Assembly: GCF_900637555.1 (NCBI RefSeq)
Contig: NZ_LR134378.1
Span: 258,001 to 322,000, forward strand
Length of the DNA: 64,000 nt
Source: Lautropia mirabilis
GTDB taxonomy: Bacteria; Pseudomonadota; Gammaproteobacteria; Burkholderiales; Burkholderiaceae_E
Direction of reading: 5' to 3'
Positions within the stretch are counted from its first letter, which is position 1. Each line of letters begins with the position of its first letter. The notes beneath the pieces are model-generated. The model worked only from the letters and a program-made list of their open reading frames with translations. It was not told where the DNA came from and did no database searches. Positions 2,627-7,429 of this stretch are shown piece by piece. The translations under genes were made by a program, and so were the position numbers.

Positions 2627-2794
2627 CTAGGGATCCTCTGAATAAGTCCCGCGAACCGGCGCGCCACGGAACGGGATGCAGGACAAGGCGACATTTGCTG
2701 TCAATAGCGCCGCTATTGACAGCAAATGGCAACGCAGTCATGCGCCCGTTACGGGGATGTGACGGCCGCGGGGAGTTGTTCAGAGGATCCCTAG
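2627..2794. mobile_element. MITE-like element with CTAG target duplication (160 bp)
   Basis: Body 2631-2790. The left end reads GGATCCTCTGAATAAGTCCC. The right end, read inward on the other strand, is GGATCCTCTGAACAACTCCC, giving 18 of 20 identical bases. Both ends are flanked by CTAG (2627-2630 and 2791-2794), a four-base duplication used by the IS5 group among others. There is no room for a transposase, so this is a non-autonomous element probably mobilised in trans. The right-hand CTAG contains the cyoD stop codon. Confidence 0.8.
2692..2728. repeat. Perfect 37-bp inverted repeat inside the MITE
   Basis: Two perfect 18-base arms beginning CATTTGCTGTCAATAGCG, separated by a single C. The arms are less GC-rich than the surrounding DNA. 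In RNA this would form a very stable hairpin on either strand and might stop cyo transcription, but there is no T tract. Confidence 0.85.
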
Positions 2795-3174
2795 GAACCC
2801 GGCACGACGTTGCCGTCAAGTGGGGGCATGCCCCACAGCGTTCCCACCAGCAGGATGGCAACCAGGAGCACGGTGACAATGAGCGCCGGGAGGGTCCAGC
2901 TTCCCTCGGCCCGGCAGTTCAGCTGCAGGAAGTAGACCATGTGCACGATGATCTGCACGACGCCCAGGCCCATGATGATCAGGGCGGCGGTGCCCGTGTC
3001 CTCGAAAGCGCCGGTCATCACCAGCCCGAAGGGGATGAGGGTGAGAATGACGGCCAGGAGGAAGCCGATGTTGCAGTCCGTCCCGCTGACGTGCGGAGGC
3101 TGCCCCATGGCGTCAGGACCAGATTGATGCCGACCTGCCGCAACTGGCGGGCCGGAATGCCGGGGGGCGCTCAT
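2791..3174 (-). CDS. cyoD: Cytochrome o ubiquinol oxidase subunit IV-like protein CyoD
   Basis: Small three-helix membrane subunit of the bo-type quinol oxidase (127 aa; E. coli CyoD is 109). Hydrophobic segments are at about residues 36-56, 64-85 and 98-117, with NIGFLLAVILTLIPFGLVMT and the MVYFLQLN stretch typical of CyoD. The start overlaps the cyoC stop (ATGA at 3171-3174), so the two are coupled. The stop codon TAG lies inside the CTAG target duplication of the MITE immediately downstream. cyoE, which follows cyoD in the classical operon, is not present. Confidence 0.88.
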   Translation of the reverse strand: MSAPRHSGPPVAAGRHQSGPDAMGQPPHVSGTDCNIGFLLAVILTLIPFGLVMTGAFEDTGTAALIIMGLGVVQIIVHMVYFLQLNCRAEGSWTLPALIVTVLLVAILLVGTLWGMPPLDGNVVPGS

Positions 3175-3803
3175 GACAGGGATCCGATGAGGTAGACGAG
3201 GGAGAACACGGCAACCCAGACCACGTCCAGGAAGTGCCAGAACAGGGTCAGACACCGGATGCGGCGCCGGTTGGCAGGGATGAGGCCGTGCTGACCGACC
3301 TGCACCAGCAGGGTGATCAACCAGACCAGGCCGAAAGCGACGTGCAGCCCATGGATGCCCACCAGCGCGAAGAACGCGGACAGGAAGGCGCTGCGCTGGG
3401 GCGTGGCCCCCATCCCGATCATGTGGTTGAACGCGTGGATCTCGATGCCCAGGAAGGTCAGACCGAACAGGCCGGTCAGGGCCAGCCAGCCGAGCGTGGC
3501 GTGCTTCTCGCTGTCCTGCATGGCCACGACGCCATGACCGCCGGAGAAGGACGCGCACAGCAGCAGGGCGGTGCTCAGCGCCACAAGCTTCAGGTCGAAG
3601 ATGTCCGCCCCGGAGAAGCCGGTTGCGTAGCTCCGCCCCAGGACGGCGTAGGCGGCAAAGAGGCAGGCGAAGAGGAGCAAATCACCGATCAGGAAGAGCC
3701 AGAAGCCAAGCATCGTCCCGTTCTCGGGGGGATGCGCTTCCGTCAGGTGGAACTGGCGGGTACCGGTTTCGGCCGGTCCCTGGCGGGACAGGGTTGCGCT
3801 CAT
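3171..3803 (-). CDS. cyoC: Cytochrome o ubiquinol oxidase subunit III CyoC
   Basis: Subunit III of a heme-copper quinol oxidase, 210 aa with five hydrophobic segments, close to E. coli CyoC (204 aa). Recognisable stretches are MLGFWLFLIGDLLLFACLF, RSAFLSAFFALVGIHGLHV and LFWHFLDVVWVAVFSLVYL, all highly typical of CyoC. No missing family feature was noted, in contrast to CyoB next to it. It lies 41 bases after cyoB and overlaps cyoD by four bases. Confidence 0.93.
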   Translation of the reverse strand: MSATLSRQGPAETGTRQFHLTEAHPPENGTMLGFWLFLIGDLLLFACLFAAYAVLGRSYATGFSGADIFDLKLVALSTALLLCASFSGGHGVVAMQDSEKHATLGWLALTGLFGLTFLGIEIHAFNHMIGMGATPQRSAFLSAFFALVGIHGLHVAFGLVWLITLLVQVGQHGLIPANRRRIRCLTLFWHFLDVVWVAVFSLVYLIGSLS

Positions 3804-3844: not shown

Positions 3845-5848
3845 TCAGACGTGACGAGCCAGAAGCCGGGTCCGGCCCGCCTCGGTGCGCTCGACCTGGG
3901 CTGCCGTGATGGGAAAGCCTCGCCCATGGCTGAATGCATGGGCAATGATGGCCCCCAGCAGCACGATGAAGCTTGCACCGGCCAACAGCCATATCTGCCA
4001 GATCATGCAGAAGCCGAAGACCGCGCCGAGTGCGGCGATGGTGAAGCCGGCCGCCGTGTTCTTCGGCATGGGGATGGGAATGAACCCGCGTGTGGGCCGC
4101 ACATAGCCGTTGCGCTTCATGTCCCACCAGGCGTCGATCTCGTGCACCACCGGGGTGAACGCGAAGTTGTAGTCCGGCGGCGGCGATGCGGTGGACCATT
4201 CCAGCGTGCGGGCATCCCAGGGGTCGCCCGTCTCGTCGCGCAGCGCAGGGCGCCGGATGAAGCTGTGTACCAGCTGGGCGATGAGGGACAGGATGCCCAC
4301 CAGGATAAGGCCGGCACCGCTGGCAGCGATGAGGAACCCGACCTGCAGCGACGGATCGTCGACGTGGCTCATGCGGGGGGGAACGCCCATGAGGCCAAGC
4401 ATGTAGAGCGGCGTGATGGCGAGCCCGATGCCGAGGAACTCGCACCAGAACGAGAGCCTGCCCCAGAACGGGATGAGCTGATAGCCGAAGGCCTTCGGGA
4501 ACCAGTAGGCGATGCCGGCCATCAGGGCATGGACCACGCACCCCAGAATGACGTGGTGAAAGAAGGCCGTGACGAAGAGGCTGTCGTGCAGTACGGAATC
4601 GGCCGGCAGCACGGCCAGCTGTACCCCCGCCACGGCCCCGATGGCAACCATGATCAGAAAGCCGAGCACCCACATCATGGGCACCTCGAAGCGGATGGCC
4701 CCCCGGTACAGGGTGAAGACCCAGTTGAGGACCATGGCCCCGACGGGGATGGCGAAGATCAGCGTCGAGAGGCCAAGGAAGGTATCGGTGCGGGTTCCGG
4801 CACCCAGGGGCAGAAGGTGGAGCAGCCCCACCAGGACAGCCAGGAGGGTGACGCTGCAGGTGGCCCCCACCATGGCGGTGTAGCCGAAGAGGCGCTTGCC
4901 GCTGAAGGTGGTCGTGATCTCGGAGAAGATGCCGAACGCGGGCAGCATCAGCACGCAGACCTCGGGAAGGACCCAGGCCCGGATGAGGTTCACGTAGATC
5001 ATGGCGTTTCCGCCCAGATCGTTCGTGAAGAAGTGGGTGCCGGCGAAACGATCCAGCGCCAGCAGGAACAGCGCGGCCATGAACACCGGGAAGATGGCGA
5101 TGATCAGCACGTTGGCGCACAGGGCGCTCCAGGTGAAGAGCGGCATCTTCATGAGGCCCATGCCGGGGCAGCGCATCTTCACGAGAGTGACGATGAGGTT
5201 GATGGCCGACAGCGTGGCCCCGCCTCCGGCGATCAGCAGTGCCCATAAGTAATAGTCCATCCCCACGTCCGGGCTGAACTCGATACCCGAGAGCGGCGGA
5301 TACGCGAGCCATCCAACCTGGGAGAACCCGCCGACAAACAGCGAGAGCACCACCAGCACGGCGCCGAAGGCGCTCATCCAGAAGCCCAGGTTGCCCAGAA
5401 ACGGAAAGGCTGTGCCCCGGGCGCCGATCTGCAGCGGCACGAGGTAGTTCATGAAGCCCGTGATGAGCGGCATGGCCACGAAGAAGACCATGATCACGCC
5501 GTGGGCCGTAAGGATCTGGTCGTAATGATGCGGTGACAGGTAGCCCGGGCCGCCGCCGGCGGACCGGGCATGCTGCAGGAGCAGCATCAGCGCCCCGGCA
5601 AAGCCGGGCAGCAGCATGACCAGGCCCAGCACGATGTACATGAGGCCGACGCGCTTGTGATCGACGCTGGTGACCCAGTGGCGCCAGAAGCGTCCCCACA
5701 TCCCGAAATAGCTCATGCTGCCCACCCACACCAGACCGCCCAGGGCGACGGCGACGAAGAGGGCGAGCAGAACAGGCTCGTGGAAGGGAATGGCCTCCCA
5801 AGACAGGCGGCCCAGCAAGAGTTTGACGGTGTCGGCTTGCTCGAACAT
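3845..5848 (-). CDS. cyoB: CyoB-like quinol oxidase subunit I lacking most catalytic ligands
   Basis: By family this is the catalytic subunit of the bo3 ubiquinol oxidase (667 aa; E. coli 663). It aligns to E. coli CyoB without gaps through the catalytic helices, with residue numbers shifted by +10. Retained: the low-spin heme b ligands H116 and H431 (E. coli H106, H421), quinol-site H108 and Q111, E296, and the CuB ligand H344. Lost: CuB ligands H284 to L294 and H333 to L343, high-spin heme ligand H419 to F429, cross-linking Tyr288 to C298, K-channel K362 to M372, D-channel D135 to G145, and quinol-site R71 to P81 and D75 to G85. The text reads AWVLPEVCVLMLP where AWGHPEVY is expected, and FFHHV where HFHNV is expected. 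The frame is intact, with no stops or frameshifts. The E. coli residue roles are established; that this subunit cannot reduce oxygen is my inference. It may act as a heme-b-only electron carrier or structural paralogue. Confidence 0.9.
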   Translation of the reverse strand: MFEQADTVKLLLGRLSWEAIPFHEPVLLALFVAVALGGLVWVGSMSYFGMWGRFWRHWVTSVDHKRVGLMYIVLGLVMLLPGFAGALMLLLQHARSAGGGPGYLSPHHYDQILTAHGVIMVFFVAMPLITGFMNYLVPLQIGARGTAFPFLGNLGFWMSAFGAVLVVLSLFVGGFSQVGWLAYPPLSGIEFSPDVGMDYYLWALLIAGGGATLSAINLIVTLVKMRCPGMGLMKMPLFTWSALCANVLIIAIFPVFMAALFLLALDRFAGTHFFTNDLGGNAMIYVNLIRAWVLPEVCVLMLPAFGIFSEITTTFSGKRLFGYTAMVGATCSVTLLAVLVGLLHLLPLGAGTRTDTFLGLSTLIFAIPVGAMVLNWVFTLYRGAIRFEVPMMWVLGFLIMVAIGAVAGVQLAVLPADSVLHDSLFVTAFFHHVILGCVVHALMAGIAYWFPKAFGYQLIPFWGRLSFWCEFLGIGLAITPLYMLGLMGVPPRMSHVDDPSLQVGFLIAASGAGLILVGILSLIAQLVHSFIRRPALRDETGDPWDARTLEWSTASPPPDYNFAFTPVVHEIDAWWDMKRNGYVRPTRGFIPIPMPKNTAAGFTIAALGAVFGFCMIWQIWLLAGASFIVLLGAIIAHAFSHGRGFPITAAQVERTEAGRTRLLARHV

Positions 5849-5948: not shown

Positions 5949-7079
5949 TTACGGGGCGGCAGGGGAAGCAGGGACTGCGGGTACAGCCGGCATGGCGGGC
6001 TTCGGCAGAGGCAGCGGACTGTGGGCCTGCATGTCGGTGGCGTGCATCATGGGCGTGCACAGTGCCTCGGACACGTAGGAGCGAAAGACCGTGATCTCGC
6101 CCCGGTGGGCGGGCTGGTTGATGGCCTCGCGGACCACACCATCGACGCCCAGGCGACCCAGACCGCCCTGCGCGTCGATGGCCAGGATCATGTCGGAACA
6201 CATCCGGTCTTCCTCGACGCAGCGCAGACGGATGCGCTGGTACAGGTCGGGTGCGACGCTGGCGTATTCACGCACGTTCTCGTTGACGCTGGGCCGGGCC
6301 AGCTTGAGGTAGTCGGCGCGGGTGAGCGGACCGGTACCGCTGCGACGCACGTTCTCGACCCAGGCGGTGTAGGCCTGGTCGTCCAGCCCCAGAAGCCGGA
6401 ACTGCATGCCCGCAAAGCCGGCGCCGGAATAGTGGCCCGAGCGGCCGACGTAGACACCGGGCCTGTTGATGACGGCATCAAGCTGACTCTCCGCACCCGG
6501 CAGGACGCGGACCCTGCTGGCCAGCACGGGAACGTGGAAGGTGTTCATCACCGACGAGGCCGTCAGCCTGAAGTGGATGGGGCGGCCAACCGGCACGGCC
6601 ATCTCGTTGACCGTGGCAATGCCTTCCCCGGGATAGATGAAGAGCCACTTCCAGTCGAGTGCCACCACCTGCACCTCCAGCGGCTCGACGCCGGCGTGAG
6701 CGGCATGGTGCGCGTGGGTCTTCACGAGCGGGCGGACAGGATCGGGCGTGGGCATGCTGCGGACAGCGACGGTGGCCAGCGCAACGACGATGATCAGCGG
6801 AACGGCCCACAGGGCGATCTGCGGCCAGGGGGCACGGCGGGCGTCGGGTGCACCAGTGGCCGAGACGTTGCCTGCCCGATAGCGCCAGGCAAAGAACAGC
6901 ACCAAGCCGATGACGGGCACGATGACCAGCAGCATCAGCCCCGTGACGGGCAGCAAGAGGTCCTTGCCGGGCTGGGCCACGCGGCCGGACGCATCAGGCG
7001 CGAGCAAGTTGCAGCCGGCGGCCAGGCCTGCAATGGCCAGCAGGGGCAGCAACGTGGGCAGGCGGTGAGCAGTTTTCAT
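5949..7079 (-). CDS. cyoA: Cytochrome o ubiquinol oxidase subunit II CyoA
   Basis: Subunit II of the bo-type oxidase, 376 aa. The start at 7079 gives a lipoprotein signal with lipobox LAAG-C (Cys23), as in E. coli CyoA, followed by two transmembrane helices and a periplasmic cupredoxin domain. The stretch LDWKWLFIYPGEGIATVNE and SVMNTFHVPVL match CyoA closely. The CuA copper ligands of cytochrome c oxidases are absent, as expected for a quinol oxidase. The C-terminal 30 residues are rich in Pro and Ala. First gene of cyoABCD, 100 bases before cyoB. Longer open frames exist upstream but would bury the signal peptide. Confidence 0.92.
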   Translation of the reverse strand: MKTAHRLPTLLPLLAIAGLAAGCNLLAPDASGRVAQPGKDLLLPVTGLMLLVIVPVIGLVLFFAWRYRAGNVSATGAPDARRAPWPQIALWAVPLIIVVALATVAVRSMPTPDPVRPLVKTHAHHAAHAGVEPLEVQVVALDWKWLFIYPGEGIATVNEMAVPVGRPIHFRLTASSVMNTFHVPVLASRVRVLPGAESQLDAVINRPGVYVGRSGHYSGAGFAGMQFRLLGLDDQAYTAWVENVRRSGTGPLTRADYLKLARPSVNENVREYASVAPDLYQRIRLRCVEEDRMCSDMILAIDAQGGLGRLGVDGVVREAINQPAHRGEITVFRSYVSEALCTPMMHATDMQAHSPLPLPKPAMPAVPAVPASPAAP

Positions 7080-7429
7080 GCCGGGAATGGTTTCTGAAGC
7101 GCCAGCAGAAGGCCAGAGCCCTTCATCGACGCGACTCTGGCCCCTCCCCCGCAGGGGCGGCGAACGGATGAAACGACACCGCATGCGACAGCACGGGCTT
7201 CCTGCCCGGCGACAACGCCGGCAACGTCACGAACATGCAGCCCGGCAGCAAGAGGCGACTACGTAAAATGCCGGCGAAAAGACCGCCGCCGATGACGGCG
7301 GCGCGGGAATGTATCAGGCCTTCCCCATGCTCCGGCGTGAACCGGATACCATGGCGCAATGATAGCGATTCCGCCGACATCGCTCAAACAGACGCCGCCC
7401 CTCTCCGGGATACCGAGGACACGCCCGCC
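7080..7429. other. Divergent intergenic region between cyoA and the corA-like gene
   Basis: About 350 bases with no supported gene. It contains a GC hairpin (CGCCGCC / GGCGGCG) near 7284-7303 and must carry both divergent promoters. I see no clear FNR, ArcA or Fur site. Confidence 0.5.

Follow-up and report, generated by a model that had tools for sequence, protein, structure and literature searches.

What becomes of a terminal oxidase that no longer has the site at which oxygen is reduced? Few enzymes are as highly conserved as the heme-copper oxidases, and pseudoenzymes are familiar from other families. The question is raised by a gene of Lautropia mirabilis, which we take to be a commensal of the mouth, that codes for a full-length subunit I of the bo3 quinol oxidase type (CyoB) in which the oxygen-reducing site is absent. 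Here we use comparative genomics to ask what the losses comprise, how far they extend beyond this gene and this genome, and what the pattern of change says about the fate of the complex.

The window, that is, the whole stretch of DNA analyzed here, spans 64,000 nucleotides (positions 258001-322000 of NZ_LR134378.1; assembly GCF_900637555.1), and all coordinates refer to it; its genome of origin (G000) is a single contig of 3.17 Mb that is 99.87% complete. The cyoB-like gene lies on the minus strand at 3845-5848 and, as a preliminary description of the locus had stated, is an intact frame of 667 codons from ATG to stop. On the same strand it is accompanied by the genes for subunit II (cyoA; 5949-7184, 411 residues), subunit III (cyoC; 3171-3803, 210 residues) and subunit IV (cyoD; 2791-3174, 127 residues, with the start picked by frame reading), all four frames being open and in the order cyoA-B-C-D. 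The CyoB product shows clear homology to the COX1 domain (PF00115, 365.4 bits against a cut-off of 34.8), and its alignment to E. coli CyoB takes in residues 12-656 of the query (763.7 bits, 53% identity) at a constant offset of +10. It also covers the complete CyoB equivalog profile TIGR02843 (positions 1-646 of 646) with a score of 861.7 bits, which is below the curated cut-off of 1020.35. Its nearest CyoB loci in the public genome set belong to a Lautropia bin and to Lautropia dentalis, at 70% identity each.

Residue numbers below are those of E. coli CyoB, the L. mirabilis codon number being ten higher, and all codons lie on the minus strand. The alignment bore out the losses listed in the preliminary description (H284, H333, H419, Tyr288, K362, D135, R71 and D75) as well as the retention of H106, H421, H98 and Q101. 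In full, the substitutions are R71P, D75G, R80L, D135G, N142G, W280R, G283V, H284L, Y288C, H333L, T359V, K362M, H419F and R481P, and the residues retained are H98, Q101, H106, N124, E286, H334, H421 and R482. The histidine sextet is thus incomplete, with three of the six gone: we take H284 and H333 to be CuB ligands, which are replaced by leucine (CTT in codon 294, 4967-4969; CTC in codon 343, 4820-4822, with the neighboring H334 retained), and H419 to be the ligand of the high-spin heme, which is replaced by phenylalanine (TTC in codon 429, 4562-4564). H106 (codon 116, 5501-5503) and H421 (codon 431, 4556-4558), presumably the ligands of the low-spin heme b, are both in place. If D135, N142 and E286 are assigned to the D channel, and K362, T359 and Y288 together with E89 of subunit II, presumably at the channel entrance, to the K channel, then only E286 of this set is unchanged; K362 has become methionine (ATG in codon 372, 4733-4735), D135 glycine (GGC in codon 145, 5414-5416) and CyoA E89 glutamine. 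The quinol site, which we take to consist of R71, D75, H98 and Q101, is half retained (H98 and Q101), with proline and glycine in place of R71 and D75 (codons 81-85, 5594-5608); R80, presumably in the same helix as R71 and D75, is lost as well. Three new residues of the L. mirabilis protein, Cys298, His432 and Arg290, lie at or adjoining former active-site positions. By descent the protein belongs to the heme-copper superfamily; from these features it is predicted not to be an oxygen reductase.

To place these losses against the background of the family we compared CyoB with 92 other rows (80 named loci, 11 further loci and E. coli, with three genomes counted twice). L. mirabilis differs at 41 of the 195 columns that are invariant in those rows, and each of nine relatives treated in the same way, by leaving it out, differs at 0-1; the divergence at invariant columns is far beyond chance. 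Among the invariant residues, losses affect 12 of the 22 on a list of functional residues drawn up after the losses were known, versus 29 of the 173 others (Fisher p=2e-4). The remaining subunits are not spared. The preliminary description had considered CyoA and CyoC to look normal, which did not hold: their frames are open, but positions conserved in at least 98% of sequences are changed in CyoA (8/39, E89Q among them), CyoC (6/48) and CyoD (2/15), versus none in three relatives. CyoA and CyoD further show in-frame length differences from the sister genomes, and cyoB and cyoC have no indels relative to the two closest relatives (G001 and G002). We also considered the retention of glycine and proline (4/49 lost) as a mark of preserved structure, and dropped it because GC pressure alone would spare such codons.

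The losses are not common to related genomes. Among nine Lautropia genomes compared, L. mirabilis included, six congeneric full-length CyoB proteins have normal motifs throughout; G003 has no CyoB match, and G005 has only other oxidases, at 33-40% identity. Wider surveys with TIGR02843 covered 399 genomes of Burkholderiales, 369 of the class and 398 of the phylum, three overlapping sets in which at most three candidates were scored for many genomes. We read 33 other CyoB loci with scores below the cut-off of 1020 (about 620-1010 bits; three partial) and found no ligand-lacking sister among them, the six histidines, K362 and Y288 being present wherever covered. This negative holds among the matches listed, down to about 485-515 bits, under which a badly worn CyoB would merge with ordinary cytochrome c oxidases. 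For a plasmid copy with the same loss, matches were compared by identity only, and the top rows among the best 8 of 909 records are 60-61% identical. So far as surveyed, then, the loss of CyoB ligands is confined to one genome. The same survey brought up a second group of sub-cut-off CyoBs, mostly with longer frames, in which glutamate replaces D75 of the quinol site (16 of the 33 loci: L181-L183, L190, L198, L201 and L203-L212); Q101 is replaced by glutamate in four of the 33 (L187, L201, L205 and L210).

The cofactor supply of L. mirabilis shows a matching gap. Eight of the nine Lautropia genomes have a heme O synthase scoring above the cut-off of TIGR01473, and eight have a heme A synthase (PF02628), L. 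mirabilis being the exception in both cases; its single TIGR01473 match, of 82 bits, is like the 73-83-bit match found in every other Lautropia. The heme A synthase gene, ctaA, is split in two in G001 and G003 and partial in G005. In G001, G002, G006 and G008 the gene order is methyltransferase-ctaA-cyoE-sco, the methyltransferase gene being presumably bioC-like. In L. mirabilis the methyltransferase and sco genes are 198 bp apart (about 332,616-332,814 of its contig G000:C1, outside the window), and the 10 kb surrounding this junction contain no cyoE or ctaA match that exceeds 40 bits. The simplest reading is that cyoE and ctaA were apparently removed by one clean deletion. A family search recovered cydA of the bd oxidase in L. 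mirabilis, and frame reading identified ccoNOP (cbb3 oxidase) and a quinol-dependent nitric oxide reductase (qNOR), with their histidine motifs in place. We looked for a second oxidase in need of heme O or heme A and saw none, the two other PF00115 genes reading as CcoN and qNOR. L. mirabilis thus appears to have neither of the known enzymes of heme O and heme A synthesis, and its respiration would have other exits. Taken with the residues described above (three of six histidine ligands and those of both proton channels), the missing synthases support the loss of O2 reduction that the preliminary description had proposed, as a prediction from sequence. CydA is patchy in Lautropia, being found in four of the nine genomes with L. 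mirabilis counted in (L161; G003, G005 and G008), and its presence may explain how Cyo became dispensable in L. mirabilis.

Some further observations concern the relatives. The heme A synthase gene adjoins that of heme O synthase in G001, G002, G006 and G008 and at L166:9209-11417, and each of those four Lautropia genomes has three PF00115 genes, which by length and score appear to be CyoB, CcoN and qNOR. The Cyo complex of the ctaA-bearing Lautropia may therefore be a quinol oxidase of the ba3 type, with heme A. Between ctaA and the methyltransferase gene lies a small frame (L166:11414-11866), weakly conserved in G001 and G006, which has no Pfam match and no counterpart at the L. mirabilis junction.

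An enzyme with a mutated O2-reducing site and missing heme genes has either been retired from its old task and retained for a different one, or is on a slow course to disappearance. The latter reading, under which cyoABCD lost its function together with heme O and heme A synthesis, and is now decaying, finds support in the rates of evolution. In protein trees the L. mirabilis branch is long for every subunit: 0.46 for cyoB (versus 0.06 for G002 and 0.08 for G001), 0.40 for cyoC (versus 0.11 and 0.08), 0.60 for cyoA (versus 0.16 and 0.11) and 1.17 for cyoD, the longest of the four (versus 0.07 and 0.21). For seven neighboring or control genes the L. mirabilis branch is ordinary. We also estimated omega with a purpose-written codon model on a tree fixed by hand; given this tree and the saturation of dS, the following values are only rough. 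Foreground and background omegas are 0.179 and 0.048 for cyoB (7 genomes, 667 codons; 2dlnL 43.9 against a single omega and 63.0 against 1), 0.187 and 0.071 for cyoA (7 genomes, 362 codons; 12.0 and 31.8), 0.316 and 0.096 for cyoC (7 genomes, 154 codons; 8.9 and 6.0), and 0.15 and 0.022 for cyoD (6 genomes, 122 codons; 5.2 and 6.0), and no shift is seen in six control genes (2dlnL at most 3.8). All four cyo genes are accelerated in the lineage to L. mirabilis.

The distribution of these changes also favors a dying operon. In L. mirabilis CyoB 42 of the 199 sites invariant outside Lautropia are changed (21%), close to the 17-28% of the other conservation classes, unlike the steep gradient across these classes in the sister CyoBs; in CyoA and CyoD, too, change is almost flat over the classes, and in CyoC less so. 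The residues gained in CyoB track GC pressure, with a net +32 for GARP and -46 for FYMINK among 147 changes, and throughout cyoA-D the GC-driven drift extends to the encoded proteins. At the nucleotide level, the first- and second-position GC of cyoA-D exceeds that in G001, G002, G006 and G008 (in cyoA, 0.61 versus 0.51-0.54), and the third-position GC is ordinary for the L. mirabilis genome. Moreover, quinol-site, D-channel, K-channel and active-site residues are gone with nothing evident in their place.

Against decay stand, in the first instance, the open frames. All 1,415 codons can be read without meeting a stop or a frame break. Had the excess changes been neutral, the four genes together should contain 7.4-12.8 stops, or 5-14 according to simulations, depending on base composition. 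Taken alone, the stop count does not decide the matter: for cyoB by itself 2.7-7.3 stops are expected and none is seen in 0-5.5% of runs, the upper figure coming from the most GC-biased simulation. The nature of the new residues points the same way, in that CyoB has gained seven charged residues versus 22-23 expected (0/200 runs as extreme at each of three base compositions); avoidance of charge is weaker in CyoC (1-3/200) and CyoD (3-10/200) and not clear in CyoA (14-21/200). All changes are taken to be neutral in these simulations, whereas a part of them will have arisen while constraint was normal; the CyoBs of the sister genomes carry 29 and 30 unique changes.

The most telling sign of upkeep is that the loss of constraint in CyoB is regional. 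For this comparison we defined a catalytic core of L. mirabilis residues 71-100, 146-170 and 286-450, which we take to be the catalytic helices, with the border set after the losses were seen. Within this core 75 of 220 sites are changed, no conservation class being spared (35/94 invariant and 19/53 variable sites). Outside it the figure is 75 of 447, and there invariant sites are changed far less often than variable ones (7/105 versus 44/188; p=2e-4). In neutral simulation about 53 changes fall within the core, where 75 are observed, and 25-27 hit invariant sites in the rest of the protein, where seven are observed (0/300 runs in either case, at each of three compositions). A border-free test over 16 bins, with edges chosen by us, is likewise significant (chi2 43.1, p=1.5e-4). 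Omega in the core is 0.315 against a background of 0.033, still below 1 (2dlnL 12.9 versus 1), and outside the core 0.147 against 0.057 (2dlnL 16.0), so that the rest of the protein is also relaxed, less than the core. Judged from these patterns, CyoB outside the catalytic core appears to be under constraint still, within an operon that has relaxed as a whole.

Plain neutral decay of cyoABCD is accordingly rejected. The preliminary description had held that this is not simply decay: this stands in so far as pure neutral drift is excluded, and has to be qualified in that relaxation is broad across the operon, a verdict that comes from the genome of a single strain. The combination it had set against its own reading, namely normal homologues beside a lone relaxed copy, was found in its first half, and in its second only in part, the relaxation not being whole. 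Slow death of the operon nevertheless remains a strong rival, and one that we consider quite possible if short of probable; under it the open frames would mean that selection faded gradually, or that the harm done by misfolded membrane proteins still weeds out the worst changes. To the reading that the L. mirabilis CyoABCD is a pseudo-oxidase that retains its fold and serves a non-catalytic role we give slightly better than an even chance.

According to the pseudo-oxidase reading, the lineage to L. mirabilis has lost, as the sequences show, its heme O and heme A synthase genes, its high-spin heme/CuB site, and residues of the quinol site and of the two proton channels. With cbb3 and bd oxidases available, the enzyme would have become dispensable. 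CyoABCD may nonetheless still fold and assemble, with at most a single low-spin heme b, and might be retained, for example, to scaffold or otherwise assist a different respiratory complex. We infer assembly from the four subunits being open, membrane-compatible frames. No new motif or partner in support of such a role was found. The best of five AlphaFold models of CyoB (pLDDT 74, versus 51-65 for the others; pTM 0.84) superimposes on E. coli bo3 with a TM score of 0.91-0.93 and an rmsd of 2.9 Å for the top three matches, a resemblance that proves little because the model was built from aligned homologues that are themselves normal.

The preliminary description had favored another role, in which a complex with heme b only would pass on electrons from quinol or act as a quinol sensor. 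The retention of H106, H421, H98 and Q101 and the missing heme O and heme A enzymes are in keeping with it. However, R71 and D75 of the quinol site, as well as R80 and R481, are lost, and CyoA has no further domain in a Pfam search. Moreover, the relaxed core still has 59 of its 94 invariant sites unchanged, so that H421 would be kept by chance with a frequency of about 63%; we therefore rejected the retention of heme b ligands as proof of function, it being statistically empty. With quinol residues lost and ligand retention within chance, this proposal is weak and in our estimate improbable.

It is still harder to believe that the protein remains an oxidase with a new mode of metal and O2 binding in the old cavity: H334 and E286 are kept, and Cys298, His432 and Arg290 are new at or next to its former positions, but the losses include two CuB ligands, the high-spin heme ligand, Tyr288 and residues in each of the proton channels, and they are enriched at the listed functional residues. 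A sequencing or assembly error, to which the single assembly behind the finding might point, is equally hard to credit in a single-contig, nearly complete genome where 8 of the 15 listed key codons differ at two bases, the frame is intact, cyoB is free of indels and the absence of cyoE-ctaA elsewhere in the genome matches.

A search of open-licence PMC papers brought up no ligand-lacking CyoB, no heme-copper oxidase pseudoenzyme and no paper combining Lautropia with cyoB. If the L. mirabilis complex has indeed outlived its chemistry, it would be a natural test of the roles of Cyo subunits beyond O2 reduction, and would tell residues that serve the fold from those needed for catalysis. Should the complex be dying, it would provide a clean snapshot of the retirement of a terminal oxidase, with cofactor synthesis lost and the core relaxed most.

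Comparison with known systems brings out how far this complex has departed from its relatives. It resembles the E. coli bo3 oxidase CyoABCD (PDB: 1fft, 7cub) in gene order, in the near end-to-end alignment of subunit I and in predicted fold, and differs from it in being without three of the six histidine ligands, R71 and D75, residues of both proton channels and a gene for heme O synthase. With the Cyo system of Lautropia dentalis (G001/L038) it shares orthology, the same gene neighbors and 70% identity, whereas the other Lautropia Cyo systems keep every catalytic residue together with ctaA-cyoE. The syntheses of heme O and heme A have been described, as has a ba3 oxidase made from E. coli cyoABCD in Paracoccus (PMC9145763). 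The histidine sextet, with two ligands for the low-spin heme, one for the high-spin heme and three for CuB or FeB, has been called a signature of heme-copper oxidases (PMC3413370), and the closest parallel to its breach lies in the putative NO dismutases, which that paper describes as divergent qNORs with one active-site histidine changed to asparagine and the proper quinol site lost, their fold being thought kept and the proteins thought still catalytic. L. mirabilis CyoB is like them in its lost quinol site and changed active-site histidine, and unlike them in that they keep all histidines but one, whereas it has lost three of six, the ligand of the high-spin heme included.
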